Shown here: positions 1-51,228 of the stretch, one piece after another | Layout: the number at the start of each line of letters is the position of its first letter | Position numbering within the stretch: the first letter of the stretch is position 1 | NCBI RefSeq assembly: GCF_041260155.1 | Contig: NW_027248277.1 | Location: forward strand, 8,662,212-8,726,211 | Direction of reading: 5' to 3' | Source: Ptychodera flava | Lineage: Eukaryota > Hemichordata > Enteropneusta > Ptychoderidae | DNA: 64,000 nt | Program-made: the position numbers and the translations under genes | The notes under the pieces: generated by a model | Told to the model about the DNA's origin: nothing | Database searches by the model: none | Seen by the model: only the letters and a program-made list of their open reading frames with translations

Positions 1-308
1 TGAACAAAATATGTCATTTTGTGTTTTTTAATCCTTCTTATTTAGTTCCACTATCAGAGATGTGGAGCGGTTGCAGTGAGCAGGTTGATTGAGGTGCCCG
101 TCGTCCGTAGTCCTCTGTAAACTTTTTTCCCCTTCTCAGAAACTACTGATCAGAAATTTTTTATAAGTTACGTGAAAGCACTCAGGATGACTGTACTTTA
201 GTTTGTCAATATGATGAGTATATTTGCATATGCAGTTATGTTTGGGCTGATTGTCATGCTATTGGTCAAACATTACTTAATTTGTATTTTGTTTATTTTC
301 ATGTTTAG

Positions 309-6039
<5,731 letters not shown>

Positions 6040-7714: not shown

Positions 7715-7804
7715 TAACATGTTCACCCCTAATTCCCCGTAAACAAGTCCACAATCACCATTGATAACAATGGGTTTGGGCCAAACCATGGTGGTCATAG
7801 GGAG
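7715..7804. mobile_element. Short MITE, family CCCTTTCACC
   Basis: Reverse-oriented copy with GTTCACCCCTAATTCCCC and the core CCATTGATAACAATGGG; the right terminus is eroded. Counterpart at 52895-52985. Confidence 0.6.
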
Positions 7805-7982
7805 GGCATTCATTGATCCCATTTATTTTCATCACCTACCTTGCTTACGTTTGAAGAAAAGTCTGAAGTTTTGTATCTTGGCCTTTACTTACAACTCACC
7901 GATGTGAAGTTGCATGCTGTCACCCCTGTTTTCTTCTTTAATGGTCCAACTTTTTCATAAAAAACAATAACCATTGACAACT

Positions 7983-8206
7983 TTAACCCTTTGAGCGCCA
8001 AAGTCTATTTTGTCCCCTTTATAAAATATAGCCCAGTCAATTTTTCTCAGATTTTTGCCAAAATTTTGAGAAAAAACTGTAGCAAATGAAATGTGATGTC
8101 CATTTGGTCCAAAATTATCAACAAATTACAGAAAAATTCATAAAAATTGGTAAAATTTTGCACTAAAATTTTGGCGGGAGAAAAATTACAGCACTCAAAG
8201 GGTTAA
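7983..8206. mobile_element. MITE with ends TTAACCCTTTGAGCGC, copy A
   Basis: About 224 bp, bounded by TTAACCCTTTGAGCGC and GCACTCAAAGGGTTAA. TTAA target with CCCTTTG termini is piggyBac-like. The interior is AT-rich with no coding potential. Confidence 0.7.
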
Positions 8207-8711
8207 CAGCTCAAACAAGGTCAGCTCCTTGCTCATTTCAGTTTCAGTTTCAACAAAAACCACTTTGCAACCCTTTGCCCCTTCAGTATCTCAAATATTC
8301 CAACGGCAGCTTTGATCACTATTTTGGACATGATACCTATTACAGCATTTGCTGACACCTGTGAGAATTCTGACAATTTTAATCGTAAAGCGTCTTTATT
8401 GCTGCTGCAGTAGAAGCCCCTTAGTGTGTCATTTCTGTTATGATCACAAAATATTTTCTGAAATCTTGTTCACGTGATTTCCGAGAGCTGTGAAAAACAA
8501 ATTCCAGACAAATACATACATATTCAGGAGAAAACTGTGACTTCATTCAAATTCAAAGCTATGACAAAGTTGGACATTGAAGCCAGGAAAGAGGGACGTG
8601 ACAGTATTAATCCTAAACTCTATTTATCACATTCTATATTTTCTTTGCAATCATTTTCATCCTTTGAGGAAAATTCTGTCCATTCTCAATCACATCTGTT
8701 GGTCATTTTAT

Positions 8712-8800
8712 CCCGTTCACCCCCCCAATCCCTGTAAACAAGTCCACACTCACCATTGATAACAATGGGTTTGGACCGAACCATGGCGGTGAAAGGGTTA
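8712..8800. mobile_element. Short MITE, family CCCTTTCACC
   Basis: CCCGTTCACCCCCCC to GGCGGTGAAAGGGTTA. Counterpart at 53892-53980. Confidence 0.62.
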
Positions 8801-9807
8801 AAATGCCTTTTTTGCGTGATGAACAAACTGAAATTTTTTTCTGTGGAAAACACATTTTATCAACCATAAACAGTCATATGTTACATTATAGGTAGGATTG
8901 TACATTGCGGTATTTTGACAGTTTTTGATATCCTTTTAAACTGTCAGAAATCTTTAAAAAGTGAAATTCATTGACCTCTCCAGATGTAATATGTGTACTC
9001 AAAATGTTACATGACCTCTGACCTTTGACTCAAATATAGCCGCCAGTGAAATTTCAAAATTTTAGTTGTATCTGAACTGTGGCTTCCCTCAGGTATAACC
9101 TGTTTGTGACCTTTATTTTGGTTGGGTTCATAGGTCAAAGGTCGTGCAGGGCTGTCTAGTTACTAGGCAATTATTTGTTCAATGCATTTCATCTCATTCA
9201 ACAGCATACACTGATGATTTTTAGATTCTTAGATGTAAATATATAGAAATTTCATCATCTGCAAAATTTAAAATTGAACAGGAGAATTTACACTGGGGAG
9301 CGCTTGGAATTTACCCAAAAATTTTAAACTTTGACAAAAAATATTTTAAACAAAGGGATTTATTCGTTTAAGGTGGTATTTCATGTTTTAAAACCCGTTG
9401 TGAGCAATAAATAGGGATACAATTTGATAAATTTTGCAGATTTGATAATACTGGTAAACAAAATTTAATACCCAGTGGAAAGATCTAGAACTTCGGTGAT
9501 ATTTTTTTTATTATTAGCCTTTCAAAACTGTACACGTGCAATGACAGGAAATTTTTCACAATTTGTATCAATGAAATTTTTCTCGTGTGTGTCATGTTCA
9601 TAATACTTTGAATTTGTTTTAACTTTTTTGTGAGCTTGGGTCTGTGTGTTTTCTAAGCTTCCAAAAGGCTTTATTGTATGTGTGATTTAGGGTCTTGTTT
9701 GATACCAGGAAACATACCATGTGACAGATATGTGCATGTTTCATTGAATATCTGTCTACTCTTTCAGAAAAAGCTAAGAGGACAGGTAAAGGCAATGGGG
9801 CCCTGAA

Positions 9808-9955
9808 GATGAATATTTACATTCAATTTTCATGAATATTCATGACATATATGAATATTCATGGCTGAATATTCATGAAATGTGTCATGAATATTCATGT
9901 AGCCCTAAATATGAATCTTCTTGTCAGCCCTGAACATGAATTTTCATGATTGCTT
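9808..9955. repeat. Array of ATGAATATTCATG-like palindromes, copy A
   Basis: Several overlapping or spaced copies of TGAATATTCATG with degenerate neighbours (GAATCTTC, GAATTTTCATG). The palindrome resembles paired POU-factor sites. Confidence 0.6.
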
Positions 9956-10667
9956 TGACTCTGTTAATATAAAAAATGTTCCCAATAAATTAACATGATG
10001 GCCCTGAATATGAATAATCATGACAGTCTTAGATATAACTATTCCAGATACCCTAATTAATTGAATGTTACTGAACATTGAAATACATTCTGTATCATAC
10101 ATTTTGAATGTCCATTAGAACTGTTCACATGAAGATTCGTCTTTCTTGATTCCATCTTATAAACAAATATGTCTCGTCTTTCTCAGTGCATGTCGGCGTT
10201 AAGTTGAAACAGTGGTGCATCTAAAAGACCATACTGCCACATTCATATCAAACATTGTGCATCCAATTTCTTCCTTCCAGTGCCCCTCAAAAATATATTC
10301 AACCTTACCATACAGTGTACAGGGCCCTCACCAAAACAGGTTGTGAAATTGTTGAAGTCCTTTGGAAGCTATTAAACTACCCACAGCCAAGTAAGCTTAG
10401 CTCAAAACTTTTAATGCTACCATGTAATTACTGATATTAAGAAGTTCAAAAGAAAAACGAAAAAAAAAGCTTATATATGATGACCAGTTTTAACAGAGAA
10501 AAGTTTGGAAATTGTTGCTAAGGCAACAGAAGTTGTGTATTTTCATTAAGAAGAGGCATATTTTTAGAGAATGACAGATGTTTGAAAATTGTCTTTTAGT
10601 TCTAGGGTATCATGTGTATTCACTGTACAGAGATGCCAAAATTTTGGAAATGTCTTGTGCTCTTTTT

Positions 10668-10762
10668 AACCTAAGCGTTCACCCCCAGATTTCATGTAAA
10701 CTGGTCTGTAATCACCATTGATAACAAAGGGTTTGGGCTAAACCATGAGATGGAAAAGGTAA
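10668..10762. mobile_element. Short MITE, family CCCTTTCACC (diverged)
   Basis: GTTCACCCCCAGATTTCATG with core CCATTGATAACAAAGGG. Counterpart at 55850-55942. Confidence 0.5.
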
Positions 10763-11219
10763 TGTATTCCTCTTGTGAAACAAAATTGTTGAAGTTAAAC
10801 ATTGTTATATTGTTAAAGCAGTACTTTCAAGGCAAGTTGTAGTTTAGGTGAAGGATTCTAACTGCACTGATTTGACCTTTCAACTTTGACCTGACCTCTT
10901 TTACATAAGAAATATACAAGAAATGCAGATTTTCTTTCACACAGATTCAGAATCAAGTCACATACAATAGTACTTCTGTTGTTCAATCCTTCCTTCTGAA
11001 ATGGTTCATAAGTCCAGAGTATCTGAAAGATTGTCGTATTTTCCATTGATTGGCTCCAATATAACATCAACCAATGTTTTGAGTGAAATCCTGCAGCTTG
11101 TTGACCAAGTAAAATTCCTTCTTTTGGAAAATTATTGACACCAAAGTTTTTAAAATCACTCCACATCTGAGAGAAAATCATGTCAAATTAGATTATGATA
11201 AGTATCGAATGTTATCAAA

Positions 11220-11425
11220 TTATATGTTTAAGGTTTCCCATAGAATGAAGTGAAATCTTAATTAGTCTTATTAAATCAAATCATATCAAATTAATCCAGA
11301 TTAACCTAATCAAGGCAGATGTGAATTCAGTTTATCAAATCTGTGAAATGAATTCCGTTTCACCGGATCAAATCTAATCAAATCTATCAAAATCAAATCA
11401 AATCAGTCTAATCCAAGATGGCGGT
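11220..11425. repeat. AATCA-rich low-complexity stretch
   Basis: Irregular runs of AAATCAAATC, TAATCAAATC and ATCTAATC over about 200 bp, also present near 56405-56610. No coding signal. Confidence 0.5.
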
Positions 11426-12817
11426 TTCGAGACCATGAAAAAATTGGCCATTTTTGTAACCTTTACCCTGATATTTTCATTTCTGTGAACCCACCATCTG
11501 GTGATTTGACGTTGTCACGACTACAAATAAACTTTTGGCTCGAGCATCAGTTTTGCCGATTTAGATGTTAAAAGTTTAAATCAAAATCTAAAACTTCAAA
11601 TAATGAAAATAGAAAGGGCACAAGACATTCCTTTGTAAAAAGTTAAAATAGTTGTAAATGTGGTGTTCATTTAGTTTGAATTTGGGATAGTTTACCCTAT
11701 GGATTGCCAACTTAAGTATGTAAACCTGAAATTGTAAGCCATGTGTGATGAACTTTGACACAGGGCAAAGTTAGAGAGCCCTCACAGTTTAAAATTTGAG
11801 AGTATAGATCTGGTTTTATTAAGGCAACATTCATGCATTAGTGGAAGTGAGACTGACTTCAACTGTCTAGGATTCGGTTGACTTGGTAAGTTACCAAGAT
11901 ATATACGGTACTGTTGTGATGTGCTCGAAGCCAGTATTAATGTACGAGAGATGTTGGATTCAAGCTTTTTGCTCATTTCATAAATTATTTCTGCATTTTT
12001 TTGAGGAAGTGTGTCAGAAATGCAATTTGGAAAGTTGAAAGTATTGTTAACAACCAGTGAGCATATTGCAGCTTCAATGTCCTTGACAACTCTCCTGAGA
12101 AAGAATTTTCAACTGTGAGGGCGCCCTAACCCGTGCTTGTTTAGAAACACCAGTATTTTTGAAGTTGTTTTCCCAAATTATCGGGTGCAGAACCCATAAT
12201 TCCAGAAAGTGTTTTTCAAGATTTTATTCCTGTATAATTGTACATGTTCTCCAGTTTTTCTGTTTTCCTGTATTTCATAGTTGATATAGTTAAGAATAAA
12301 AATGTAACAAAATGATCAGACATTTTCAGTGCGTACTGGTGCTTATGACGAGATTGTGAATGATTCTGGTGGATTTTGGAGAATACGTGCTACACTACAA
12401 AGCTAAGTTTCTGTGAGTTATGCCTGTGTGTGTGTGTGTGTTTTCAAAGCATTCCAAATGTCCAACTTCCTTCTATAATATATACATACGTTTACATACC
12501 GTATTCATCCATTTACAAAACCTAGCTTCAGTAGATGACCCTCCCAACTTTTAGGTGATTTTCAAAATTGCCATACATCCAAAAATTTTTTACAACCAAA
12601 AAATTAACCACAGGAACAGTTGATCAAATCTTGCCCATGTAAGTTTTTGTACATTCTGACAAAAGTGTGGAAGTTGAGAGTTCTGCTGAGTTGACACATT
12701 GGCATTAGAAGTGCTGCATGCTGGTGGAAAACATTGGGTTGCTTGATTATAAGTTCCCCTTATAATAACATCAATTTCATGTTGCTGATCCTGTCTGATA
12801 ATTAGACAAATACGGTA

Positions 12818-12904
12818 TGTACATACATACATACACACACACACACATGCATGCATACATACATACATAAACACAAACACACACACATAAACACAAACAC
12901 ATAC
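12818..12904. repeat. CATA/CACA microsatellite, copy A
   Basis: Mixed TACA and CACACA units. Confidence 0.9.
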
Positions 12905-14481
12905 GAAATATTGTGCGTGTCAATCCCATGCATTTACGTCACTAGTGCTCAGTAAACTGAACATGACAATAAAATCCCTTCGTCCATAAAGCAAAAACAA
13001 AAAACAATATTGGATATGCGAAAATATTTTTATTTCTGTATTTTGTAGGTAAGATAGCAACTGAAAAACATCAACACCGCTCAAAATCCAAAGCACAACA
13101 TTTTCTGGCCATAGAGGGCAGTGTTTCAATCCTAAGACCATCAGCAAAGTCTTTTGAAAGGCAAACCACATCAAACGATTTAAAATAATGTCACGATTTA
13201 AAATAACGTCACAATTGTTGCACAGTAGATAATGGCTGCAGAGAAAAAGATACCGTATTGTGATAAAATCCTTGTTTACATCCACTCATGGAACACATTA
13301 TCTTTGCATTGGAAGACAATTCTGCAGAAACAAAATGTGTAAATGGGTAAAAATTTATTTCCAATCTTTGGTCTGACAGCCTCATTTCCATTGCAAGACT
13401 GCACCCTAAAATACAGTACACTTTAGAGTTTGAGGTGCTGAAGAAGTGTATATTGTGTGGAAATAGTCCGGGGTTTGATAGTGGATGTCAATGTGAAATC
13501 ATGCAATAAATGTTGCCAGAAAACAAGATAATATGACTCTCCAAACATACTTTATTCATGGGACACACATTGTAAAATGTTTGACTTTTGATGAAAAATT
13601 ACTCTGGTAAAATTTTAAACGATAAAATCTGAATGATATAAATAGCGTTGGTGAGCCGTTTACATAAAGTGTGTGAAATTGCTAGTGAAAAATATCACTG
13701 TAGCATTTGCATTTGAATGTGATAACTGTATATCACAATCATGATTATTACACATCCATTTCTTATGATCTAAAAGATGCGAGACAAATATACATATAAC
13801 ATAGGTGGAATATATACATCACTACAAAAAATCTCCACCCAGTTTTAAAAAAAGGTTGATATTATAATCACTGCACATCTATATTTTCAGTTAAAACAGA
13901 GAATAGGACTTTGTTACGTAAGTGGTTTTGTGACATTTTAATTGCACACATAATGCTCAAGAACTAGAGTCAGATGAAGGTCGTAGAGTTAAATGATTGC
14001 TTTGGTATATTAAGAATAGAAGATCTAATCTCTCACATTAGAAGTTATTCTTTTTCTGCTTCAACTTATAAACAAATCTTTCTTTACTGAAAATTTCTTT
14101 TATGACATTGCAACTTTGGTAACAAATGATTTAAAAATTTTAGTCTGTTTAATTCAACAACTGAGAACTGTTTCGTCTCTGTGATAAATGATAACAGAAC
14201 CAGCTGACAACACAATCTGCTGTGTAACAACCTATGCGAGGAAAACATCAGATTTAACATACACCAGACTGCGTTATAAAATTGTAAAGAACTCATAAGG
14301 GAAAACTGATATTACATGACAGGGTAATATATTCCATATTAGAGATGGTAACATAGACTTTATAATATGAAAATAGACCATAAAATACAATTTTCATAAA
14401 AATTCCTACCAACAAATAATTAGAGTCTTTTCTAAATATTATTTAAAAATGTTCTTCTATCCATTTTGCAATTTGTCATTT

Positions 14482-14584
14482 CAGCTTGAGCTCACAATGT
14501 TTACATTGTTTCATCAAGTGAAGGAACTGAGAAACTCTTTATTCCGACACCATCATTCAGTAAAGGGGTTGTAAGCTCACGCTG
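14482..14584 (-). promoter_or_regulatory. SECIS element (type II) in 3' UTR of gene 1
   Basis: On the minus strand the basal helix pairs CAGC-TGAGCT (from 14584) with AGCTCA-GCTG (to 14482). The core has AUGA at 14553-14556 facing UGAU at 14513-14516, which gives the tandem G.A / A.G quartet. Then come 12 nt with GGTG/CACT and GGAA/TTCC pairing, the unpaired AAA at 14538-14540, and a GAG/CUC mini-stem typical of form 2 SECIS. The 12-nt spacing between AUGA and AAA is canonical. The paralogous gene has the same architecture with a different helix sequence, which is compensatory support. Confidence 0.9.
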
Positions 14585-15116
14585 AGCGACACAATTTTCA
14601 AAATGGGGGACATCATGGTGCTGTAAAGTAAACCTTTACCCAGTACTTGCTCAACTAATGGTATCATCCACAAAATTAACCACAAGGCATCTTATAAGTT
14701 AATAAGTCAGCTGGAGAGGGACACTGATTTTTGTCAAATTTTAAAATTACCAGCACTTCAGAATTTGGAGATTGATTAAAACGCTCAAGTAGTCAACAGG
14801 TCATTGCTGAAAAAAAGCCATGCACGACACAAGGCAAAGTTAAAGATCCACTTGTATGCAAATGAACTTATTGCACGTCTCTTCATTGCTGTTATAGAAA
14901 GGTTGCAAATATATGTAAAACATAACATTTCACCTCATTCCAAATGAATATATAAACATAATTTACATACAAAAGAGCCATCTCATTTACATATCAATAA
15001 ACACATATCATTTACATATGAATGGACATGTATCTTTGCCTTAAATCGTGCATTAGATGGAAATTGTTAGCAGCCATGATGTCCACATCTTGTTGCATTG
15101 CTGATTTGATGGTCGT

Positions 15117-18100
15117 CTACAGAACTACACATGAGCTGGCTTGCTTGTCAGTCAGCTCTTGGATATAATCACCTCTGTAGTCCTGAATTGCAATGACAAC
15201 CTGCCGAGAAACAAAACCAAACAATGAAAACAACAATGACGTAAAAAGGTACGAGAGCTGCTGTAACCTAACAAAGATATGCTTTTGGTATAAAACCATG
15301 CTAATGGCATCAGAACAATTTTTGTCTTTTTCGTAATTCTGATTGCATCCGACATAGTGTGCCTTCTACACTAATATGATGCGCCCCCGATGCAAAAAAA
15401 CTACCAGTGATGCACGCTGTTATGGGTCATGTGTAAAGATATCGGGCTGACCAAAATAAATTTCCACCATTCCGCAAACTGGGGCAAAGTTTCCAGAAAT
15501 CCATGTTTGGGTGAGGGCAAACTAAGGGGTCATAACTAGCCCCCCTAACTGTTGGCAGGTGGACAGACATGAGTGGAATTACTAGGGTTACTGGGATTGT
15601 ACTAGATAGTGTTATACCCAAGTCTCTGTTGATGAAGCATGTACAGGAGAAATTTAAAAACTTTGCATCATATGAGAGACTGAATCCCTTGACATCAAAC
15701 AGTCCCTTTAAAAAATAAGCTGTTACTTTTGATGATTTTTTCCACAATTTTTATTTGTAATGTCTCCTACAGTTTATTTTTGTATACCCAAAAACATGTT
15801 AAAACACTGTGTATTCCCCTTGTCAACACAGTATCTATATGGTGTACAATGCACTGTAATTGTTTACATTTGAATTCCAGTCCGGACCAGAATTCATTGG
15901 TCAACAATGACAATGCAGTCTACACAGGCAGAGTTGACAAGTTGAACCCTGTGTATCAACATGCTTTGGGGAGTAGAATACGAAAGCATAGTTGACATTA
16001 CTAATAAGAACAGAGAAAAAAAATTATCAAACGTTACCTGTTTGTCCCTCAAACACAACTGAAAGATTACCTGTTTTTCAACTGGAAAGCCACCTGTCTT
16101 CAGTTTGGAATACAGTAGCTTGTCATCGACAGTAATCTCAAAAGATCCTGGCAGAAGAGCAAAAGTTTTATTTCAAAACATTGAAAGAAGTAAATAAAAT
16201 TTTTGAGCAGTCATTTTGCACGTAAAATATCAATAAATTTTCAATTATCAGTAAATTTAAGATAATACAGCTGGTTTAAGTTGAATGTATTTAAAGAAAG
16301 TGGCAAAATGGAGCTGTTTCTAAAGTGCATTTCTTCATGCAAATATATTATTACATGTAGAAGTCTTTACTAATTGGCAGTGATATTAGACAGACTACAG
16401 ATTGCAAATTTGAATGTAAATGTATTATCAAAAGAAACAAAAAGTAGCATTCCAAATTATGCAAATATATATTTATCTATGCAAACACATTAGAAATTAT
16501 TCAATCATGCGAAATGGTATCATAGACCCTCCAGAAAAACAATGCAACTCACCCCGTCGACCCCTTGTTCCAGTAATCTCCGCATCTGGCGCTGCTTTAC
16601 GAATTTTGTTAGCAAGCGCATGATAGCGGCTGATGTAACCTCATCCACTACTGCAATTGAAAAAGAAAAGAAAAAAATATGAGATTTTATTTTTAAATAT
16701 TTATTCAGAAGTCAGTGGTTCCTCAGGGAACTACAATCAATGAAAGTCCAACTGTCGTGTGGTAGGGTGTGTTGTCAGCTGCATTAACTCCTTCACGATC
16801 GTGGTTTGACCCAGACCAACTGGTATCGAGGGTGATTGTAGATCTGCTCACAGGAAATTTAGGCGTGACCAGGTGGATGAGCACTGAATAACATTCTCTT
16901 TGAATCAAGAAAATTTTACATATACATATTTGTGTTGGGCTGACTCAACAATGTCAGACAGAACGGACCCCAAAAGGTGTTTTTATATCAACTTACATGT
17001 AATATTCAAAAGTTCTCTTGGATCAAGCGATTCGCGTTCAATACTTGATCGACCAAGCTTGTGGATAACTATGGCGTTTACGGTTTATTGTGTCAAAGGC
17101 CAACAGGCGCTCGTCATATTGCTATGTGTGTGAACAATGTGACGCAACCACAAATACGTTGCAATCTTGCATCGCAGGGGCCTTGAGTAATGAGATGCCA
17201 TGTGCCTGTGTTTTCATGTCACCTTCTGTGCTTTGGTAACCCATGGAGCTAAAAGACTTTTTTAGCTCCATGGGTAACCACAGCATTGGTGGTTATGGGC
17301 GAGTTGAAAGAGATAATCAGCGTACTCAATAAATTAATATTACGTACAGATCATGCACTCTTTATCAAACGGTGGCATGGAAACAACTCCGCCACGCTCT
17401 GTCGACGACGAAACCGAAGATCGTTGCATTTCTGTGGTTCAGATTTTTGCGCATCCAGAATTGGTAGAAAAATGGTCCCACGGTCCACAGGCGTACGGAA
17501 CGTTTCGTAGATCGTCGTCGGATGGGAAGTGACTGACACTGTGAGGCCGAAGGTACTGTATACCCTTATGAAAATTTTTAGCCTGCTGCACAGTGTTCCT
17601 GCACAGGTGCGGCACTAGTGCAACAGACAATTACTGTAACTCAACTGTAAGGCGACTTTTTCGCATGCAAATTAGCTGCTGCCGCACAGGCGCAAGAAAT
17701 GATAAAAACAGTAACTGTGCGGCAGCTTTGTGCAGGAACTGTGCAGCAATATACAGCAGGTTGCGGCAGCTCTGCTGCAAGGCGATTTTTTCTCATGCAA
17801 ATTAGTTGCTGCCGCACAGGTGCAAGAAGCAATGAAAACAGTAACTGTGCGGTAGCTTTGTGCAGGAACTGTGCAACAATACAACAAGTTGCAGCAGCTT
17901 TGCTGTAAGGTGATTCTTTTGCATTATACACATTAGCTACACTGAGCAAATATATAATGCAAGAAATGCTGAAAACAGTAACTGCAGTAACTTTGTGTTG
18001 GAAATGTGGAAGCCTGTGTTTGCACAATAGCCCTTTGAACTACAGAGTACATGAAAGACTGTGCAGGAACTTCACAGAAAATTGTGGCATCTTGCAGGAC

Positions 18101-21100
18101 AGCTACCAGGAGTAGGTAAAATTTGCGGCAAATTATTTTGCATGTTACTGCAGATTTGCCGCAAACCACAAAATGCAAAATTTCCTTCATAAGTTGGCAT
18201 AATTCCACAGCAATCAGCTCTGGGATAAACTTTTACCAATTTCAGCAACAGTAAGAAAACGAAATACATTATTAAATAGACGATAGATACTGAAAACCAA
18301 AGAAGCAACACAATTAAGTGACAGCATTAAGTGACAGCAAAATTTCTTGTATTGTACCATAAGTTTCAACGTTTTATCTTTTCCAAGGATATAATACGTT
18401 CAGCTCAGATATGTACACAGAAGTTGTAAAATCGCTTGTGTAAACATGGCCAATGTTAGTGACACCGTTGAAAACCTGACAGACTGTGGAAAGCACAAGA
18501 TGTGTTTTATTATCCAACTAAGCTCTGAAATACCAGTATCACAAGAAAAAATGGTCAGCGCAAATAAAGTTATTGTTAAATAAAAAGACATAGAGAAAAA
18601 AAGATTAAATTCAAATTGTGGTACGATTTATTTTAAATGCCATGTTCATTTCATGCCACAAGTATCTTCAAGAGAATTTCTTTTGACTCGAGAAGTTTCA
18701 TGTAACATTTACATTACTGTCATAGGCTGCGATTTGGCTTTCTGTTCTCTGAATTTCTTGTCCCTTCCTCACTATGCATTCTGAAAAATACAAATCGTTC
18801 AGGGAAGAAAGTCTTTACCGTTTGACCACACATTTAAACATCGCAATTTGATGAAAGACATCAATAATCATTTGAAAAGAGACAAAAAAGTTGAAAACTT
18901 GAAGCAAAAAAATGCATATACATTTATGATTATTAAATTAATAATGATCAAATGTCAAACAGCGGACAGCTCGCCGTATGTTGTTTACATACCAACGGCG
19001 GCGACAATCTGCAAAAATCTCAGCACTTACTGTAACTGTTGTGAAACGAAAGTGAATTCAGTATGAATCAGTACTCAACGAAAATTCATCTGTAGGTAAA
19101 CATAGCAATACAACGATTACAGAACATTATAGCGGGTGACTTACCGGTACATTTGAGAATTGCTCGCAGAGGCTGGATGATTCGATCCCGGTTCCGGTTG
19201 CAGGTCTCTCCGAACCGTGTGTACATACTTAGAAAACATAGTGAGCATTTTTACTGCTGTTCACGTTCACAAATTTTGAAACCCGTCTATCTCTGGTGCT
19301 GTATACACGTTTTTCCAACACTGTGATATCATTTGCCTGGCGATTCCATAGAAAGATCACGAAATTGTCCACTAGATAACTCCCTAACAACAAGTACACA
19401 GCCGATGGTACCAAAATCTAACTTCGCGCCGATCAAGCCTCATGACGTTAACGGAAGTGCGATCTGTAAATCATTGCGCGATTTATAATGTAGTCCCGTT
19501 TTTAAACGTTGGAATTGACTCTACATTATTCACCAATCCGTTATGTTTTATACTTGATAGAGCACCCAATTTACAAGTATAATGAAACAGGTTATTTTCA
19601 TCATAGAAAGACTCAAAATAGAGTAAAATTTCTTTCAACACGAAGATTCAATATCAATGCGCGAACTGAACTTGATGAACCGTGACCTCAGAGTGTAAAC
19701 ATGTCGGCTGCAGCTCAGCGCTGGACGTTAGCGAAGCAGCGTATTGGATTTTCGTAAAGCGGTCAGGATGGAGTGTGAAACACCCCAAAATTGTGCTCGG
19801 CAATTATCTAACGCTGAAAACATGGACAAAAGCATTGAATATCAATCCAGTCATAACAGAAAGCGAGATTTTGTTAGCGATGACAGGACACAGACTTAGC
19901 TTCCAGTGCTGGGCACTGTACGTACGTACCGTATACTGTATACACTGCTATAGCGTGAAGTCTGAACACGTCCACGGCCCTGCTTGGAGCCAAGGTACTA
20001 GTAGCGGGTCCTGCGACATTGAAGTTTATTTGTTTGTTTCTACAATGAAAAGTTCTCATCTGTCGATATTTTTAAGGTACAGATTTGCAGTAACAAAAGT
20101 CTACGACGCGTCCTTACACAAGTTACAGACCATCATAGATTTCGTTCGAAACTGTTTCAGTGCATTTTGGTATCACTCGCAGAAAATACAGAGTTTAACT
20201 TGCAAGTCAGACAAGTCCCTGTTTTAAAATTTGTTTTCCTAAAAATTCAGTTGTCGATTGAACCTTGATTACCAAACCAGATCGTCGAAGGGGGTACTCA
20301 TGTAATGATGTTACATGTCACTGCTGTATAATACAGATGTACTCTTTATATCCATCATCCTGCAATGTTGTTGAGTTTAGGCCTGTGTCGCTTTCACCAG
20401 CTGAACTGTGCTTTAAAAGCTGTCCATTATCTAACAGTTTTTATAATTTAAAAGTTGGATTGTCTGTTATAAAAATAAATGAATGTAAAATATAAATGAA
20501 AGGTCAGTTTTGTTTTCTTGAATATGACTGGTCACGAAGTGCAATGGTACACTGTACTCCCGGTAATAAAATACTCGGCAATGTGCCCATCATGTGTTGC
20601 TCCATATTTGCAGCAATAACCAATAACAATCTGTACACATAATTGTCATTTCTGGCACACAAGCTGCACACTTTGATGGCCTGCTGCACACAAGCTGCAC
20701 ACTTCAAGGTCTGTTGTACACAAGCTGTACACATTTTACATTTGCCGCACACAAGGTGTACAGTATGGAGATTATTGCACAGAAGCTGCACAGTTTTGTC
20801 TCCTGCTGCACAGTTTCTGCTCAGATTAACACTGTGCAGAAACTCTGCAGCTAGCTGCATTTTCCTGCACAGCCTCTCTTGCACAGCTTCCTGTGCAGCA
20901 CTAGTGCAGCAACTCTACGGCAGAGCTGCCGCTAGTCTACAGCAGAGCTGCCGCACAGTTTCATTTCATAAGGGTAAGCATGGAGGTAGGAAGAGTTAAA
21001 TAATAACACATGAGAGCGAGGGCAAGATCACGATTTATTGCCTGCCCAAGGGATGGTGTCATGATCGAAATATTGATGATGCCCGAGCCGTAGGCAATCA

Positions 21101-22254
21101 TGACCACCAGCCCGAGGTTATTATTTTTATTACACCGAACAAACTTCTTCGAGTACAGTTCGCCTTTCTGCATGAGTCGAGTCCAGACCTCAGCGTAAAA
21201 TGTTGTCAGTGCCAAGTCTAGGGTTGCCGCTGAAGGTTTGCCGATCTCTTCGGTGGCGTATCCAAATTTGTTGCTTGCATAGTCGCTGAACACAGAAATT
21301 GCATTCCTTGTTGCTATTTTCGCTCGTTTGCTGTTTACTTGCATCAAAATATCGTCCAACTGTGCCGGTGATAGCTCTGCATGACGTTTTGCAGCCATAG
21401 TTGCCTACTGCAAGTAGGCCTACAAGCGAACGACAATTTGTTACGCGCAGAAAGGTTGCGCAGTAAATAAACTGACGTCATCCATGTAATATCAAATGCA
21501 GAGGGCATCATCAGTTCGCAGAGGGCATCATCACTTTCGCAGAGGGCATCATCACGTTCTTTTACATGTCACGTGAGTCTTGTTTAACCACTGGCAGTGC
21601 ACGCTGAATGAGTGAGGTGTAATAAATAAGGAATATTACAGCCTTCGGCCTCACATTGTCAGTCACTTCCCATCCGACGACGATCTACGAAACATTCCGT
21701 ACGCCTGTGCCATGGTCGTAGGACCAAACTTCGGACACCAAAGGCGCTTGGCTCGTCGCTTCGCGAAGCCCTTTTGATATTATTGCGTCACATTGTTCAC
21801 ACTTCCACGCCACCTGTGGGCAGAGCCCAGGTCGACGGCCATCGAACTTTGTCACCGAAATGGGTCCATGTGTGTCGCCGGTGTTGGAGTGTAATTTGAA
21901 GGAAGTTTGGTAAAATTGTAAGAGCATGCACAACCCACGTAATCGGAAATACCGAAGAGAATAGCGGCACATTACCTAGGCACCTGGGAGGTTAGCTGCG
22001 TACAGTAGCTCGAGGTTTTGCCTGGGTATTTGGGTCGGACGGCAAAACCACTTTGCCGTCCGACCCAAATACCCAGGCAAAACCTCGAGCTACTGTACTG
22101 CAGCTACTGGGAGGTATGCCGTTGACAATGACAGGCCTACGATTAAACCACGCAAGTTTAATATAGTGAGACTGCAAAAAAAGGTTAACACATGCTACCA
22201 CGCTCACTCGAACACTATTCGTACTCACCAGAATTCAATGTGTATCTTGGCCAT
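15117..22254 (-). CDS. SELENOW: Selenoprotein W-like / MIEN1 (Rdx12)-type thioredoxin-fold selenoprotein with CAAX box, gene 1
   Basis: Four exons on the minus strand: 22229-22254 (MAKIHIEF plus TG of a Cys codon), 16553-16650, 16071-16147 and 15117-15200. Intron phases are 2, 1 and 0. Exon 2 opens with the last base of Cys, then Ser, Gly and UGA (16641-16643), giving CSGU followed by GYISRY: the CxxU redox motif of the Rdx family (SelW, SelT, SelH, SelV, Rdx12). Exon 3 has SFEITVDDKLLYSKLK and GGFPVEKQ, very like human MIEN1 ([23 protein letters not shown]). The last exon ends SSCVVL then TAG. CVVL is a CAAX box, with Leu favouring geranylgeranylation, as in MIEN1 (CVIL). Length is 94 residues, as expected. 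All exons stay open only if UGA is read as Sec, and a SECIS lies about 530 nt past the stop. A poly(A) signal on this strand is at 13551-13556. Intron 1 (5.6 kb) holds a nested gene. Likely a small cytosolic/membrane-anchored redox protein; whether it is nearer SelW or MIEN1 needs a tree. Confidence 0.9.
15775..15980. repeat. Fold-back repeat in intron 3 of selenoprotein gene 1
   Basis: Left ACATGTTAAAACACTGTGTA and CTTGTCAACACAG pair with right GTTGACAAG and CTGTGTATCAACATG, around a near-palindromic centre (15872-15895, GAATTC...GTCCGGAC...GAATTC). The same family occurs at 25318-25510, 26228-26425 and 60940-61135. Confidence 0.6.
16641..16643 (-). other. UGA selenocysteine codon, gene 1
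   Basis: TGA on the minus strand, in frame between CSG and GYISRY at the position occupied by Sec in SelW (CGAU-GY) and by Cys in MIEN1 (CEPC-GF). The frame is open on both sides and a SECIS is present downstream. Confidence 0.9.
16784..16878. mobile_element. Short MITE, family CCCTTTCACC (old, diverged)
   Basis: CTCCTTCACGATCGTGGTTTG, then GGGTGATTGTAGATCTGCTC. It lies in intron 1 of selenoprotein gene 1. Counterpart at 61936-62030. Confidence 0.4.
17234..17280. repeat. Perfect 21-bp inverted repeat
   Basis: TGGTAACCCATGGAGCTAAA and its complement (17234-17254, 17260-17280) are separated by five bases. The counterpart near 62381-62430 in copy B has two or three mismatches, so the hairpin is not maintained. 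Confidence 0.75.
17563..18010. repeat. CTGCACA-rich tandem repeat (about 130-bp units) starting at CCCTTATGAAA
   Basis: About three units with a 130-bp period, marked by GCAAATTAG-TTGCTGCCGCACAGG at 17667 and 17797 and a more diverged third unit near 17925. The left edge TA-CCCTTATGAAA matches in inverted form the end of the repeat at 20640-20974, so both appear to be non-autonomous elements with TA target sites. Confidence 0.6.
18698..19226 (-). CDS. Two-exon small protein gene of unknown function, nested in intron 1 of selenoprotein gene 1
   Basis: Exon 1 (19145-19226) runs from ATG through MYTRFGETCNRNRDRI to a strong donor (G then GTAAGT). Exon 2 (18698-18780) begins after a TTTTTCAG acceptor and continues in phase as ECIVRKGQEIQRTESQ, ending NVNVT then TGA. 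The 54-residue product is basic in its first half, has four Cys and no obvious membrane segment, and may form a short helix with Arg/Lys/Gln/Glu pairs. I do not recognise the family. Support is the matching phase, good splice sites, a stop shortly after exon 2, and a likely promoter upstream with an ETS-type CGGAAGTG at 19452-19459. It shares the strand of the host gene. It could also be the 5' part of an unannotated longer gene. Confidence 0.55.
19227..19700. promoter_or_regulatory. Possible promoter upstream of the nested small gene (perhaps bidirectional)
   Basis: CpG-richer than its surroundings, with an ETS-like CGGAAGTG at 19452-19459 near TGACGTTA. It sits between the minus-strand ATG at 19226 and a plus-strand ATG at 19701 that opens a short frame (MSAAAQRWTLAKQRI) ending in a potential donor (C then GTAAAG, 19754). 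The plus-strand exon is not supported by any downstream exon I could find. Confidence 0.3.
20640..20974. repeat. CTGCACA-rich short tandem repeat ending TTTCATAAGGG-TA
   Basis: Units of about 31-36 bp containing ACACAAGCTGCACACTT and variants, then CTGTGCAG palindromic stretches, ending in the inverted form of the 17563 terminus. Confidence 0.55.
20961..21398 (-). pseudogene. Crypton-like (DUF3504/KIAA1958-type) recombinase-related N-terminal fragment
   Basis: A 145-codon frame starting MAAKRHAELSPAQLDDIL. The stretch around residues 30-90 (ISVFSDYASNKFG, then LDLALTTFYAEVWTRL and KGELYSKK) resembles the start of the Crypton-derived tyrosine-recombinase family found in KCTD1-like, QRICH1 and KIAA1958 proteins, where a conserved FYAE-R-xxGxxYSxKSL block precedes the catalytic part. 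The catalytic part is absent, and the frame drifts into an adjacent repeat after about residue 90. Upstream of the ATG are three copies of GCAGAGGGCATCATCA and a TGACGTCA site. Probably a broken DNA-transposon fragment. Confidence 0.5.
21498..21554. repeat. Three 16-bp direct repeats spaced about 20 bp
   Basis: GCAGAGGGCATCATCA occurs at 21498-21513, 21518-21533 and 21539-21554, about 100 bp upstream of the Crypton-like ATG on the minus strand. It may be a terminal or promoter repeat of that element. Confidence 0.7.
21993..22106. mobile_element. Hairpin (fold-back) element with 9-bp target-site duplication
   Basis: Perfect 46-bp arms (22001-22046 and 22052-22097) around a 5-bp loop (ACCAC). 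They extend outward to TAGCTGC / GCAGCTA ends with one indel. The element is flanked by the direct repeat CTGGGAGGT (21984-21992, 22107-22115). A 9-bp duplication suggests a Mutator-like (MULE) derivative. It lies 120 bp downstream of selenoprotein gene 1 exon 1, inside intron 1. Confidence 0.7.
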
Positions 22255-22480
22255 TTCGCTAGCTAGAAAACTTCAAAAGACGCCCAACAAATGTCAAAAG
22301 TGAGGCAGACGCGAGATCGTGTTTATCTGAGACACTGGGTACAGCTATGATGACAGTGCAGTATTTACGATCAGTAAGGGACGGACCATTCCATTCGGGG
22401 GTGGGGGTGTCCTCAATATAGTACCTCTCCGTTGCAACACAGCCCACATTTATCTCGCATGCGCGCTCAGAAGACAGGTA
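22255..22480 (-). promoter_or_regulatory. Probable promoter / 5' UTR of selenoprotein gene 1
   Basis: Immediately upstream of the gene 1 ATG. It holds an NRF-1-like palindromic core GCATGCGCGC at about 22458-22467, a motif typical of housekeeping promoters, about 200 bp from the start codon. No TATA box is evident. Confidence 0.35.
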
Positions 22481-24010
22481 ATTACAAATGTAGATAAAAC
22501 GCTTTGTTCATCCTATTTACTATTTTGTCCAAATAGTATCTAACTATAAAAGAGACTTATTATTTCTGAACTGATAGTATTTGTCCTGTATTAATCCAAA
22601 CTGTTTCTTCGGTAACTTGCCTGTAGTAATTATATCTTTAAAGGATGGTTTCGTGTTTGAAAAATGCACAGACTCATGTTTTGTCAGACATAAGTTTATT
22701 ACTATTTAGAGGTAGTACATGTTCGAACACTGGCGCATATTTGAAGTACAGTATTATAAAGTTTAGGGCATGCATATTGTGACTATAGAGGGCAGCCTAA
22801 CATGTAAGTTGCATTGTAGTAGGGTATGATGTGCTGTGTACTTTGCTCCTATCGATGTTTGCTGCGAAACCACTTCAAATCGGCGAATATCAAGGATTAT
22901 TGAATTTGCAACATTCAACTTTACGAAAGATAAAAAAAATACAGTTTTCGAATCTTCATGGTTATTGGTTATTTTTGTACATTTGTAAGCACAGTTAATT
23001 CTCGTCGAGTACAAATACAATGTCATCACAAAAATTCACAACACAATTCTTTCCAGAATCACAACACAAAGGCTGTTGTGGCACTCAAGACAAAAATGAA
23101 ATTACTGCCAGGACTTGCTAAAATCACAAGATTTTTCACATATTTTTTTGGAAAGTAATAAGCAGCAATAAAAATTAATAATTGAATGCACAGTATAACT
23201 GTAGTTATACCTGAAACAGCAGAAAAATGCAAATAAATTTATTCTTACACTAGGCTAGGAAAGAATAATCCGATTGTAACTTGGATTTGCCACTCTTATA
23301 TAAGACAATTGGGAATTTTTTTGGAAATTGCAACCTCACCTTTGAGGAAGATATAGAGACAATACAGTAGAACGTCGATATTCAGGCTCTCAAACTTTTA
23401 CAACACATATTTGGTCTGACACATGATTCCTTTTTCTCTATTACCAAACTTTGACAGCTGATTTTTATTCCTTATTTTAAAAGGAATGGTTGAATCTCCC
23501 TTTATAGAAAGTTTCAAGCAAAAGTTTATGTCTTTCATTTTTGATTCACATACTACCATAATACCAGCCTGACTTCAGGACAATGAGATTCAAAATATGC
23601 TAACAAGAAGAAGAATACAAGCTACATGTACAGATTCTGTTGACAATGAATCTGTAAACGACAGAGACAATAAAACATACAATTTTGAAAAGATAAACTT
23701 CGATCTGTTTTTCAAAATTTTTATTGCAGATCACATTTTCTACTGTCCTAAGAAGGATATTATTAGTCATGATACTTTGCTGGAATATGCAAAAATAAAG
23801 ACACAAAAAATCGGAAAATGATACATCACTTGAAAAATTCTTTGTCATGTACACTATGACATGACTGAAATGATTCAATGATTTTATGGACACCGAGTTT
23901 TGAAAACAGTGGTACTGTTACAAAACTCTAGAAACTTGTAATAACTTTAGTGACATTTTATTTTTTCCGGGTTTTTAAAAAATGATTTCCAGATTGCAAA
24001 TCTTGCTTTT

Positions 24011-24119
24011 TTCAACCTGAGCTCTCAAGGTTTTACAAATTTCATCAAGTGCATAAAGTGAGACATTCTCTTTGTTCATACACTGTCATTGGGTAAAAGC
24101 TGCTGTGAGCTCACGTTGA
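24011..24119 (-). promoter_or_regulatory. SECIS element (type II) in 3' UTR of gene 2
   Basis: Minus-strand fold. The basal helix pairs TCAAC-TGAGCTC with GAGCTCA-GTTGA. AUGA at 24086-24089 opposes UGAU at 24044-24047. A continuous ten-pair helix (AGTGTATGAA against TTTATGCACT, with G.U pairs) leads to the unpaired AAA at 24071-24073, then a GAGA/UCUC mini-stem with a three-base loop. AUGA-to-AAA spacing is 12 nt. This is a textbook form 2 SECIS. Confidence 0.94.
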
Positions 24120-24453
24120 GGGGCAGAATTTACAAAATGGTGGACATCATGGTGCTCTGTGAGTGAACCTGCAAACCCCCATTTCTACAATTGACTAGCC
24201 CTGGAATGATTGGGGAAATATAAACTTATGCAAATTAGATGGAGATGGCTAAATTTGAAAGAGTGCAGGAGTAAAAGGATTGATCGCTTATTGAATATTG
24301 TAAATTATTTTGAATATCAAACACTGTCCAAAATATTTTGCATTGTAGTTGAATGTTTCCCTGATTTATCACTACAGAACTGCAAATTCGTCTTGCATGG
24401 TCTTTGGACGAAAAGTTGGACATACACGGATTTGTGAAATCTTTGTGTCATTT

Positions 24454-24534
24454 GAACTCTTTCACCTACACGGTTGGTCCAAACCAGTTGTTATCAATGT
24501 TGAATAGGGAATGGGTGGGGGTGAACTGGTTAAG
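24454..24534. mobile_element. Short MITE, family CCCTTTCACC, internally deleted
   Basis: CTCTTTCACCTACACGGTTGG to GGTGGGGGTGAACTGGTTAA, in the 3' UTR of selenoprotein gene 2 between its stop codon and its SECIS. Confidence 0.5.
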
Positions 24535-24553
24535 AATATCTGGAAATTTCTTG

Positions 24554-24555
<2 letters not shown>

Positions 24556-24609
<54 letters not shown>

Positions 24610-24632
24610 ATGTATGTATGTATATATATCAT
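24556..24632. repeat. (AT)n microsatellite
   Basis: Run of TA units with GTAT at the right, in the 3' UTR of selenoprotein gene 2. Confidence 0.95.
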
Positions 24633-24896
24633 CTGCAGTGTATGACTTTTGTCGAGAAGATACCCTCAAAATCTAATAAATACACAATGACATTAAATTC
24701 CAGCAATTTCAGCATTTCAATTAAATACTACTGCAATCAATGCCCATTTTACGGTGATCACCCCATTGAACCTCCCAACTGTTTTTCTTGGAACAAATCC
24801 TAATTGATTGCCTTTGGAATAAACCAATATCTTGGCTGATATAGGGGGTAGCAGCATCCATGATGTCCTCTGATGATATCAAAATGGTCTGAGTTC

Positions 24897-27800
24897 CTAC
24901 AAGATGATGCAAGAATATTGACTGTCTTTCAATTCCTCAATGTCACCACCCTTGTACTCCTTCACAGCCGTGACAACCTGTGGATCAAGAAATTCCAATT
25001 ATTATTATATAATATTGTACATTGTTTTGATGTCAACTAAGGGACAGACCATTAGATTTTGAGAGGTTGGTGGTGGTCGCAATCAGTTTGTGAATATTTT
25101 TTTACAATCATAAATTTAAAAAAAAATTTTCAAAGTAACTCATGATATGCTAATTTTTTTTCAAACTGTCAGATCTATCATTTTTTTGCCTTCTCATTTT
25201 ATTTTTTATTTTGCAAACCAGTCTGAAGATTTTTTTATCCAGATTTTTTGCTTTGAATTTTTTTCCCGTTTTTGACCATCCCCTCCCAAGGTCTAATGGT
25301 CCATCCCTAATATGTCTGGTTCTACTCCCAACAGCATGTTGAGATATTGAGTATTCAGCTTGTCAACTCAGCCTGTACATCACACAGACTGCATTGATAT
25401 TGTTGACAAATGAATTCTGGTCTGGACTAGAATTTGAACGTAAACAATAACACTGTATGTTACATGTATACATGCTGTGTCGACACAACTAAATAGTGGG
25501 TGTTTCAAACATGCAATGGATGCTGTAATTGTTGGTCACTGTCACCTGACATAACAAACAAACAGTTACATTTTTCTGATAAATTAGCCCTTAACTCTGT
25601 ACAGTAACAAAAAAATCTACCTTTTATTACTGCATTTCCTGTGCATATTAATACTAAATTCAGGGCAAGTTATTCTGATAATGGGCCCTTGAACTAAAAA
25701 TCTACATTACTAACCCTTTTATACATGTTTATACATATTACAGGGCCAGGGGATTTTGCAAAAGGATATGCAATCACAATAGTAAAATGTGACAGAAGTG
25801 GTTTCCAATGTGTATGACAACAACTTTACATTCCACACTATATTTTGCATAGGTAATTCATGTTCCAAGGCACATTAGTTAAATATCTGTTTCAGGATAT
25901 TTTTGAATGGTTCATCCTTAATAAATTAACCTCAACAGTTTGTTTGTACGAACAATTTCTGCTGTGAAGCTGTAAGGGTCTGTGATTCCGTTGACAGGTG
26001 ACTTAGTTCAAATGTGAAAGTTCAAGAGTAAAAGGTCATGACCTACCTGCTCGTTGTATGGAAAGCCGCCATATTTCAGTTTGGAGAACAGCACCTTTCC
26101 ATTGACTGTGATTTCAAAGGATTCTGTGAAAGAAATGATCAAAATCATATAAGTTCAAAATTCAGTGATTTAAAGGGCAAGAAGATGTGACTTTGACGAT
26201 TTTTTCACTAATTTTGTTTTATGTTTCAATTACAAGTTCTTGTTCTACTCCCAAGAGCAGGTTGAAATGCCAACTATTTAAATTGTCAACACAATGAGTA
26301 TATGTGTAGAATGGAGTCCAGACCAGAATTCACCCGGTACCGTCAACAATAACAATGCAGTCTACATATGTACAGACTGAGTTGATAAGCTGAACACTGT
26401 GTATCTCAACATGTATATCAAAACATTGGCACTACTTGTCTTTGTTATTCTAAAACAATAAATTTCAAAAAAGCCTTCCTTAAAACTCCAAATATGTTTA
26501 TTTTGCACATCTAGGATGGAATTATGAAGTTATCTTTACCCTTTCACCATAATGGTTTGACCCTAACCCATCATTATAAATGGTGGACATGGACTATGAA
26601 AATGGAATTAGTTGGGGACGAGTAATTAAACTGGCTTGAGACTGATGGCTTTCATTACATGCTGGCCAAACAAACCATCAGATTTATGACATTTTGACAG
26701 TGGTCACCAGGACAAACAAATACCATTTAACAAGATTTGCTAGCAGCAAGAAAACCGTGCCTATTCACCCCCAAGTCGGAAAGTCCCTGTAAACAGGTCT
26801 ACAATCATCATGGAAAAACGATGGGTTTGGACCAAACCATTGTGGTGAAAGGAGCAATACTGATTGAAATTAATTTAGAGTGCAAAATGCTAGTCCATTC
26901 CAACTCTAGAATTGACTCTCCAAACAACATAAATGTTGCGAGTCACTTTGAAGTGTTCTCAGCGTTTTGAAACCTCTTTCAAAATTAAATCTTGCTTCAG
27001 CAGCAATATCACTCCATCAGTTGTGTTGAAGATTGGAACACAACCATGGCTGAGGCAGGGTACAAATAACTGAAAAAATTAGCTATCTGTTTTTATCAAA
27101 TAGAACTAAAGTAAAGTACATAAGATATAATGACATGATACAGCTAACAATACTAGAAGCTATCTTACGACTTCTGCCAACTTCTCCAATAATCTCCGCA
27201 TCAGAAACTGCTTGACGGATCTGGTCAGCGAGTTCCTCATAGCGGGGCTCGTAGCCTCATCCACCACTGGAAAAAAAAAGAAAAGAAAAAATGTGGTTTT
27301 GGCAGGTAACGTTAACCTTTATAATAACTATATCATAGCTCTATCAATGTCAGTGAATTAATAAAAAATTTTGTTATGTCATCCCTCCAGATTATTACTA
27401 ATAATGTATCCGATTATCCAGCATTGAGGCCACGGATGTTTTCTACATCTACACATTCACTGGCATCGCCAAAACTATCAAACAATAGTAATAATGTACC
27501 CTCTTCCAACCCATAATGGACTGAAGTAACCTTTGCACTCGATAATGTACTCGGCTTTGCTGTGTAGCCGTACATTATGTCATGCATACTTTTACATTAT
27601 CATTACAATCATAGACCCAAGAGAAAATTCTCGAGGGTCTATGTTACAATGAATTATTTTTACATATAAACATTAGCCTATACCCATCATATATTGTACC
27701 TGAAATAAACTAGATAATGAATTATACATTTTCGATGAGTTAAATGATGTACAGGAGAACACATTGCATTGCTTGTAAATGCGATGATCATAGAATCCAG

Positions 27801-28258
27801 TTGACCTGGGTCAAATCGGTTAAAGGTCAAATAGAATAGAAAGCGTAAAGTTCAGTGACATTCGGGATTGAAGGTCAATTTTGCCGGACTATTTACGAGT
27901 ATTTTTTCTTAACGTTTTATGTGCGTTATTGTGCACCCCCAGGTATTGCCAATGAAAAAATATTGCTTTCTTCTGGCCAAATTGCTCCTGTATGGTAAAA
28001 CTACGGTCCCCCCACCGTGAGAAAACTCTAATAAAACACTTCAATGGAAATATTCTGACTGCATCACCTTCGATACGCGACGATCCTTGAGTGAAGGACG
28101 GCCTGGGGCGCGATTCACCGGGCCCCGTGCCCCCATCATGATTGACTTGTTCTGTTGTTCTGCAGAGCTGAGGGGGCCGAAAAAGGGTAAACACCGTTGT
28201 AAAAGCCTTAAATGTCTGTCAAATGTACTTACCAATACTCAATATGCACCTTTACCAT
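24897..28258 (-). CDS. SELENOW: Selenoprotein W-like / MIEN1 (Rdx12)-type selenoprotein with CAAX box, gene 2
   Basis: Four minus-strand exons: 28233-28258 (MVKVHIEY plus TG), 27169-27266, 26047-26123 and 24897-24977. Exon lengths 26, 98 and 77 nt and phases 2, 1, 0 match gene 1 exactly, so the two are tandem paralogues. The product is 93 residues: CGGU (UGA at 27257-27259) followed by GYEPRYEELADQIRQAV, then SFEITVNGKVLFSKLK, GGFPYNEQ, and a last exon ending YSCIIL then TAG. CIIL is a CAAX box. CGGU-GYEPRY is close to classical SelW, while the SKLKYGGFPY block and CAAX end are MIEN1-like. A SECIS lies about 780 nt past the stop and an AATAAA on this strand at 23957-23962. Introns 2 and 3 contain fold-back repeats and TTAA-type small elements. 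By family knowledge it is a thioredoxin-fold oxidoreductase-like protein; its substrate cannot be told from the sequence. Confidence 0.91.
25318..25510. repeat. Fold-back repeat in intron 3 of selenoprotein gene 2
   Basis: Same family as 15775-15980: TTCTACTCCCAACAGCATG, GTCAACTCAGCCTG, centre GAATTCTGGTCTGGACTAGA. Confidence 0.55.
26228..26425. repeat. Fold-back repeat in intron 2 of selenoprotein gene 2
   Basis: Same family: TTCTACTCCCAAGAGCAGG, centre GAGTCCAGACCAGAATTC, right end ACACTGTGTATCTCAACATG. Confidence 0.55.
26537..26630. mobile_element. Short MITE, family CCCTTTCACC (diverged)
   Basis: TTACCCTTTCACCATAATGG followed by a degraded core, in intron 2 of selenoprotein gene 2. Confidence 0.45.
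26762..26854. mobile_element. Short MITE, family CCCTTTCACC
   Basis: TTCACCCCCAAGTCGG, CCCTGTAAACAGG, and a right end ATTGTGGTGAAAGG. Intron 2 of selenoprotein gene 2. Confidence 0.55.
27257..27259 (-). other. UGA selenocysteine codon, gene 2
   Basis: In-frame TGA completing CGGU, the SelW redox motif, in an exon that is otherwise open and continues as GYEPRYEEL. It sits at the same exon position as in gene 1, ten bases after the splice acceptor. Confidence 0.92.
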
Positions 28259-28794: not shown

Positions 28795-28894
28795 NNNNNN
28801 NNNNNNNNNNNNNNNNNNNNNNNNNNNNNNNNNNNNNNNNNNNNNNNNNNNNNNNNNNNNNNNNNNNNNNNNNNNNNNNNNNNNNNNNNNNNNN
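28795..28894. other. Assembly gap of 100 N
   Basis: Exactly 100 N, the usual placeholder for a gap of unknown size, bounded by TATGTTG and TGTTGTAGG. It lies about 540 bp upstream of selenoprotein gene 2. Confidence 1.
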
Positions 28895-29609: not shown

Positions 29610-29810
29610 GCACAGGCGCTATGTAGCTTGGGAGTCTGCTAATAGATCGATTTTCGGCTCGATCTATCGATCCCGTAGTCGATATGCCCACGACTGCAAC
29701 CTAAACACTCATTTAGGTTGCAGTGCAGGCATGTCGACTACGGGATCGATAGACCGAGCCGAAAAGCGATATATTTAGCAGACTTAGTAACCCAGCTCGA
29801 GCGCCTGTGC
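29610..29810. repeat. 201-bp imperfect inverted repeat
   Basis: Arms pair from GCACAGGCGCT (29610-29620) with AGCGCCTGTGC (29800-29810), through AGTCTGCTAAT (29633-29643) with ATTTAGCAGACT (29773-29784), to ACTGCAACCTAAA (29693-29705) with TTTAGGTTGCAGT (29712-29724). The loop is about 6 bases and scattered mismatches occur along the stem. No flanking target duplication was evident. Confidence 0.75.
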
Positions 29811-39564: not shown

Positions 39565-40056
39565 ATTGTGCTCTGAGAATTCATTATTCTCAATCTGGAA
39601 GGCATGCTAACATTCGAATAAACCATGTGATACATAGATCGGATATTTGCGTCATCTTATTTATGAGGAAATGCATTGCAGAATATTATTGTAGTACTGT
39701 TACTCCATAGTCGTGGACAGATTGGGATTTCAAGTTCGAACGATTTGTTTGTGCACCACTGTAAATGGTTGCCCCTGTTTTCTCAAGCTGTGGAAAATAA
39801 TGTGTTAATAATCACGATACTGTAAAAAAAAAAGAATACGTTTTCACTATCAAAGTATATAAAAATTATACGTTGCTGCCTAAATTACTCACATCTGTTT
39901 GTGAAGCTTTGGAGAACCCCAAGAAGAGAAGAGGCTCTCTGAATTAGATTTACTGGAGAGCGTCTGTTAAGAAAGCGACATTTGTCCTTGAACTTTGTGA
40001 AGTTTCACATTTATCAAGAAGTCCTCTTCCTTTGCAGAAATGGAAACGATGATAAA

Positions 40057-51228
<11,172 letters not shown>

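Follow-up and report, generated by a model that had tools for sequence, protein, structure and literature searches.

Here we describe two genes, A and B, on the minus strand of a 64,000-nt stretch of contig NW_027248277.1 of the hemichordate Ptychodera flava (positions 8,662,212-8,726,211, forward strand). This whole stretch is called the window below, and all coordinates are relative to it. Gene A extends from 22254 to 15117 and gene B from 28258 to 24897. Each carries an in-frame UGA within a CxxU motif, ends in a CAAX-type C terminus and is followed by its own selenocysteine insertion sequence (SECIS). A and B are genuine members of the SelW2 type, a class that is already known, and from their sequence it is very likely that they are tandemly duplicated, working selenoprotein genes, the selenocysteine (Sec)-containing relatives of MIEN1/Rdx12. 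A third, incomplete copy, A2, lies within a long direct repeat at the other end of the window.

Gene anatomy and the frame beyond the UGA

Exon 1 of gene A (22229-22254) lies 5.6 kb upstream of exon 2 and contributes 26 coding bases, encoding MAKIHIEF plus the letters TG, so that the product begins MAKIHIEF[C]; there is a G at both -3 and +4 of the ATG and the donor is GTGAGT. A mechanical scan of 16.7-26 kb gave three candidates for this exon, of which 22254-22229 alone resembles exon 1 of B. Exon 2 (16553-16650), bounded by a cag acceptor and a gtgagt donor, holds the UGA at 16643-16641 within CSGU; exon 3 (16071-16147) encodes the SFEIT, SKLK and GGFP blocks, and exon 4 (15117-15200) ends in CVVL followed by TAG. 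In gene B, exon 1 (28233-28258) encodes MVKVHIEY plus TG and has the donor GTAAGT, exon 2 (27169-27266) holds the UGA at 27259-27257 within CGGU, and exon 4 (24897-24977) ends in CIIL followed by TAG. For exon 3 of B (26047-26123), as for that of A, the boundaries come from the search and the frame from the translation.

Every donor in the two genes starts with gt and every acceptor ends with ag, and both frames are open except for the UGA and the terminal TAG. The predicted products have 94 (A) and 93 (B) residues and are identical at 54 of 93 aligned positions (58%, with Sec scored as a match). The exons, UGA sites, motifs, C termini and both SECIS folds all stand where the initial annotation had placed them. 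Its description of the exon lengths as identical is right for exons 1 to 3 (26, 98 and 77 coding bases); the last coding exon is 84 bases long in A and 81 in B. Intron 3 of A (15714-15978), intron 3 of B (25320-25485) and intron 2 of B (26179-26405) contain fragments of a dispersed repeat, 68-81% alike and on opposite strands in one comparison.

Over the 93 codons compared, the proportions of synonymous and nonsynonymous differences between A and B (pS and pN) are 0.62 and 0.25, with synonymous sites nearly saturated. Restricting the comparison to the 81 codons that follow the UGA gives pN 0.27 and pS 0.61, a pN/pS ratio of 0.44 with a bootstrap range of 0.31-0.61; none of 2000 replicates reached a ratio of 1 or more, and 46 of the 81 residues are identical. 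Purifying selection thus acts on the frame downstream of the UGA, and this part has therefore been translated for a large share of the time that the pair has existed. The 11 codons preceding the UGA are too few for a separate statement on selection. The two genes therefore combine an in-frame UGA inside CxxU with a selected frame beyond it, as is characteristic of a SelW2 selenoprotein.

SECIS elements

Both 3' flanks contain a two-helix hairpin with AUGA, a 12-base spacing, an apical AAA, a small extra stem and UGAU. The hairpins, both of form 2 and on the minus strand, lie at 14482-14584 for A and 24011-24119 for B, 533 and 778 bases beyond the respective stop codons. None of 200 shuffled sequences folded as well as SECIS A (z -4.06) and one of 200 did so for SECIS B (z -3.86). 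When the A and B regions were compared, the SECIS block was the top-scoring match (76% over 147 bases, E 1e-25), followed by exon 2 at E 4.5e-18, with which an intronic repeat was level at E 1.5e-18. Furthermore, SECIS_1 ranked first among Rfam families in both 201-base pieces, with E 0.014 in A and 1.7e-4 in B. A consensus built from three rows has 27 pairs, with 97.5% of cells paired versus 20-46% when the rows were slid, and in two of its pairs both sides have changed in a compensatory manner.

Several results weigh against these assignments. The covariation comes from three rows, two of them near-identical; 46 of 500 shuffles match it and one slid version also gives one such pair, so that it is only suggestive. 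The SECIS_1 scores, 23.5 for A and 30.5 for B, fall below the gathering score of 35; the family was not listed for 10000-32000 at E values up to 1, and a scan of the whole window against Rfam at the gathering score listed nothing. A loose SECIS descriptor (at least 8 pairs) returned 26 rows in the window, several of which represent a single site in variant form; 12 random 64-kb sequences averaged 14.6. A stricter one (at least 9 pairs) returned 7 rows, four of them SECIS B, against 1.75 in random sequences. Of 256 windows across the region, 9 also reach the folding strength of SECIS A and 16 that of SECIS B. Taken alone, the descriptor pattern or the folding energy is weak evidence for a SECIS. 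It is the position after the stop codon, the 76% identity in the face of 62% synonymous divergence, the z-scores and the top rank of SECIS_1 that jointly make the two elements convincing. The claim that each gene has its own SECIS was thus borne out: in core letters, fold and conservation the elements agree with what is expected downstream of the stop of a SelW2 gene, within 3' untranslated regions of predicted extent.

An alternative is that the UGAs are real stops, and that A and B are decaying pseudogenes or genes for truncated products. Copy A2 offers some encouragement for this view, having a weak GAG acceptor at exon 4 and one broken helix pair in its SECIS; however, SECIS B also has broken pairs, and a single one in A2 is therefore no sign of decay. 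More importantly, the frame, the splice sites and purifying selection all continue past the UGA despite the 62% difference between A and B at synonymous sites, and it is the SECIS block that the two regions share best. We consider termination at the UGA very improbable and retain the reading of A and B as selenoprotein genes.

In A and A2 the three apical A residues of the SECIS form part of the polyadenylation-signal word AATAAA; the corresponding letters in B are AACAAA.

Family, relatives and the membrane anchor

With Sec entered as C, both products matched the Pfam family Rdx (SelT/SelW/SelH; 67.1 bits, E 1.6e-18 for A and 71.1 bits, E 8.9e-20 for B; cut-off 22.6) and the NCBIfam model CXXU_selWTH (TIGR02174; 66.4 bits, E 2.1e-18 for A and 73 bits, E 1.8e-20 for B; cut-off 34.2). 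Among solved structures, MIEN1 (2LJK) aligned with residues 2-93 of B, C terminus included, at E 1.1e-18, and mouse SelW (2NPB) with residues 3-67 only, at E 2.8e-6. Judged by pairwise scores rather than by tree, A and B are closer to SelW2/MIEN1 than to SelW1, so the assignment of these UGA-containing genes to the MIEN1 type holds. They share with MIEN1 (also Rdx12 or C17orf37) the fold family and an alignment over the full length up to the C-terminal CxxL. They differ from it in having a UGA codon, in A, B and A2 alike, where MIEN1 has CxxC, and the identities are modest (34 of 92 residues for B and 32 of 92 for A).

A homologue search with B as a single protein gave no match, and no earlier record of A and B was found by it. 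Relatives were collected through two alignment searches with 251 and 480 hits, taking the best 120 of each; this gave 197 distinct rows, whose tallies lean towards the queries. Among these listed relatives the Sec column holds C in 83, W in 31 and G in one, and the CxxxG motif was not found in 82. A C in database rows is ambiguous, U being rendered as C. A CAAX-like end, by the pattern C..[LIMFVAQS], is present in 163 of the 197: 60 of 83 C rows, 29 of 31 W rows, the single G row and 73 of the 82 motif-less rows, some of the boxes being non-classical (e.g. CNIL). The two W rows that miss the pattern, P0122 and P0125, continue past CVIM with a W and a tail, as if a UGA stop had been read as Trp. 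For this reason a W in the Sec column was taken as a UGA, which it probably is, although the assignment comes from protein rows rather than DNA and W could be a genuine Trp; all 31 W rows are from lgn or jgi sources.

Three fish entries that bear the name "selenoprotein W2a, partial" (P0109, P0147 and P0152) start with the GY that follows Sec and end in CVIL, and a record named W 2b (P0194), which lacks the Sec motif, also ends in CVIL. Given the W rows with CAAX-like ends and the W2a records ending in CVIL, it seems usual for SelW2 to combine Sec with a CAAX end. The initial annotation was right about the CAAX-type ends, CVVL in A and CIIL in B. The idea that their union with Sec is peculiar to these genes finds no support, given the W-column relatives and the W2a records. 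Its expectation that automatic annotation trims such genes is met with in the three partial W2a records, which begin just after Sec.

These comparisons also bear on the possibility that A and B are SelW1-type selenoproteins, i.e. orthologues of SELENOW, with a CAAX end acquired by chance. Membership of Rdx is common to both and 2NPB does match B, but far more weakly than MIEN1 and over residues 3-67 rather than the whole length. A CAAX-like end is moreover shared by all 31 W rows, counting the two in which it is followed by W and a tail, and SELENOW is not known to carry one. Orthology with SELENOW is extremely improbable, and the SelW2 assignment is kept in what follows. A further likeness to SELENOW is the CxxU of SelW proteins (PMC3316567).

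The main tree was built from 37 rows with the Sec column masked; it is unrooted, omitting both outgroups as well as P0128, P0129, P0077, P0109, P0147 and P0189, and the W rows P0124, P0127 and P0131 are in neither this nor a second tree of 45 rows. A and B are sisters (support 98/88), and six W rows, invertebrate-like as judged by eye, join them in a group of 8 (96/89). Nine MIEN1 rows cluster together (100/100) and, with 18 fish-like rows, make up a set of 27 (95/92); the identities to these fish-like rows are 37-47% for A and 40-49% for B. Sec-using, CAAX-ended MIEN1 relatives are thereby placed in a group separate from tetrapod MIEN1 and from the fish-like rows, and in this tree the A-B pair is specific to the lineage of the window. 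Since MIEN1 is flanked on either side by W-type genes, it is simpler to suppose that the MIEN1 line lost Sec. This fits the suggestion in the initial annotation that Sec preceded Cys there, an origin of the MIEN1 line by Sec loss having already been proposed by Mariotti et al. 2012 (PMC3316567). The 45-row tree, with two outgroup segments (SelW1 and bacterial) on very long branches, is mostly unresolved and gives the A-B pair only 65/89, which weighs against the pairing; in it P0077, displayed with Cys, is placed beside P0123, a W row. The two states provide a natural Sec-Cys comparison for a cancer-linked protein, MIEN1.

The initial annotation had doubted that the class was new, and with reason. 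Published SelW2 selenoproteins (SelW2a/b/c) include those of bony fish, frog and elephant shark, and in zebrafish SelW2a and SelW2b lie in tandem (PMC3316567); SelW2 is also published from Schmidtea, Schistosoma and Trichoplax (PMC3828610). In addition, two SelW genes are listed for amphioxus (PMC3473315) and a Ciona gene has also been named SelW2 (PMC2874816). A and B share CxxU and the Rdx family with the SelW2 proteins of fish, frog, elephant shark, flatworms and Trichoplax, and the CAAX end with the three fish W2a records. A literature search on hemichordates and echinoderms found no papers. Among the papers listed, none on a lipid-anchored SelW2 was found by title or start of abstract, which is weak evidence of absence with most subscription journals outside the search; the terms 'caax' and 'prenyl' do not occur in the main text of PMC3316567, nor 'prenyl' in PMC3828610 or 'caax' in PMC3473315.

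The anatomy suggests the following pathway. The UGA of exon 2 would be read as Sec with the help of the SECIS past each stop, yielding a thioredoxin-like Rdx-family protein of 93-94 residues with a presumed CxxU redox centre. By analogy with human MIEN1, whose CVIL is reported to be geranylgeranylated (PMC6738349; PMC3527542) and whose CxxL end is listed together with those of Rac1 and Cdc42 (PMC6738349), CVVL and CIIL are probably geranylgeranylated as well, and a lipid anchor on A and B is likely. A point on the other side is that methylation of prenylated MIEN1 is described as unstudied in the review PMC6738349. The prenyl tag would hold the selenol redox site at the inner membrane face. 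There, the MIEN1 analogy, at this weakest step of the scheme, would point to a membrane-held selenol redox sensor or thiol reductase for signalling or actin.

The third copy and neighbouring features

The initial annotation described a tandem pair and missed A2, a further copy located within an 18.9-kb direct repeat. Window positions 1-18851 recur at 45124-64000 on the plus strand with a period of 45.1 kb, at 96.7% identity counting gaps. The 18,710 aligned bases contain 358 substitutions (1.9%), the longest gap is 36 bases, and divergence ranges from 0.3 to 5.6% per kb. A2 (59646-61806, minus strand) comprises exons 2 (61806-61709), 3 (61301-61225) and 4 (60363-60280) and the SECIS (about 59748-59646) of gene A; its exon 1 and any second copy of B would fall beyond the end of the window. 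The UGA is kept, and the 86 coding codons differ from those of A by three silent changes and T59S. The weak GAG acceptor noted above stands at 60363, where A has CAG. Intron 3 differs by 7.1% between A2 and A, and the stretch from stop to SECIS by 0.4%.

From its sequence, A2 would be either a recent segmental copy of A or the other haplotype of A. In the latter case the 45-kb repeat and A2 would be an assembly artefact, two haplotypes placed in line, and the animal would have A and B only. The two repeat copies are separated by a 100-base N run (28795-28894), the sole one in the window, and are therefore probably on different contigs; this tips the balance slightly towards the artefact over a real duplication. 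Two haplotypes of an outbred animal can show such divergence, and 1.9% substitutions without an insertion or deletion above 36 bases over 18.7 kb is possible for them. However, divergence varying from 0.3 to 5.6% per kb could also be obtained by duplication with gene conversion, and the N run may be something other than an assembly gap. On balance we think two haplotypes in line somewhat the more probable. The N run also takes weight from a broader proposal. In it, selenoproteins with a prenyl anchor, their selenol redox centre held at membranes, would be an ancient class found across animals and represent MIEN1 in its Sec state, and repeated tandem duplication would have raised their number to three or four in this animal. 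As a whole we regard this as tentative and rather unlikely.

Ten open frames nearby were compared with Pfam. One match was above its cut-off, to NIF (3636-3941, E 4e-15), and three others were weak and below theirs. Exons of a phosphatase gene lie at about 39943-51225 on the plus strand, and the exon at 3636-3941 belongs to the other repeat copy; judging by its exon sequences, this gene presumably resembles CTDSPL2. Tandem-like units about 130 bases apart and 78% alike, within an open frame rich in Cys and Ala, occupy 17645-18011 and are present in the second repeat copy too. Additionally, mir-1278 matches below the gathering score fall on an imperfect palindrome at 29633-29784, which may be a small inverted-repeat element; its arms agree at 85.7% over 154 aligned bases.

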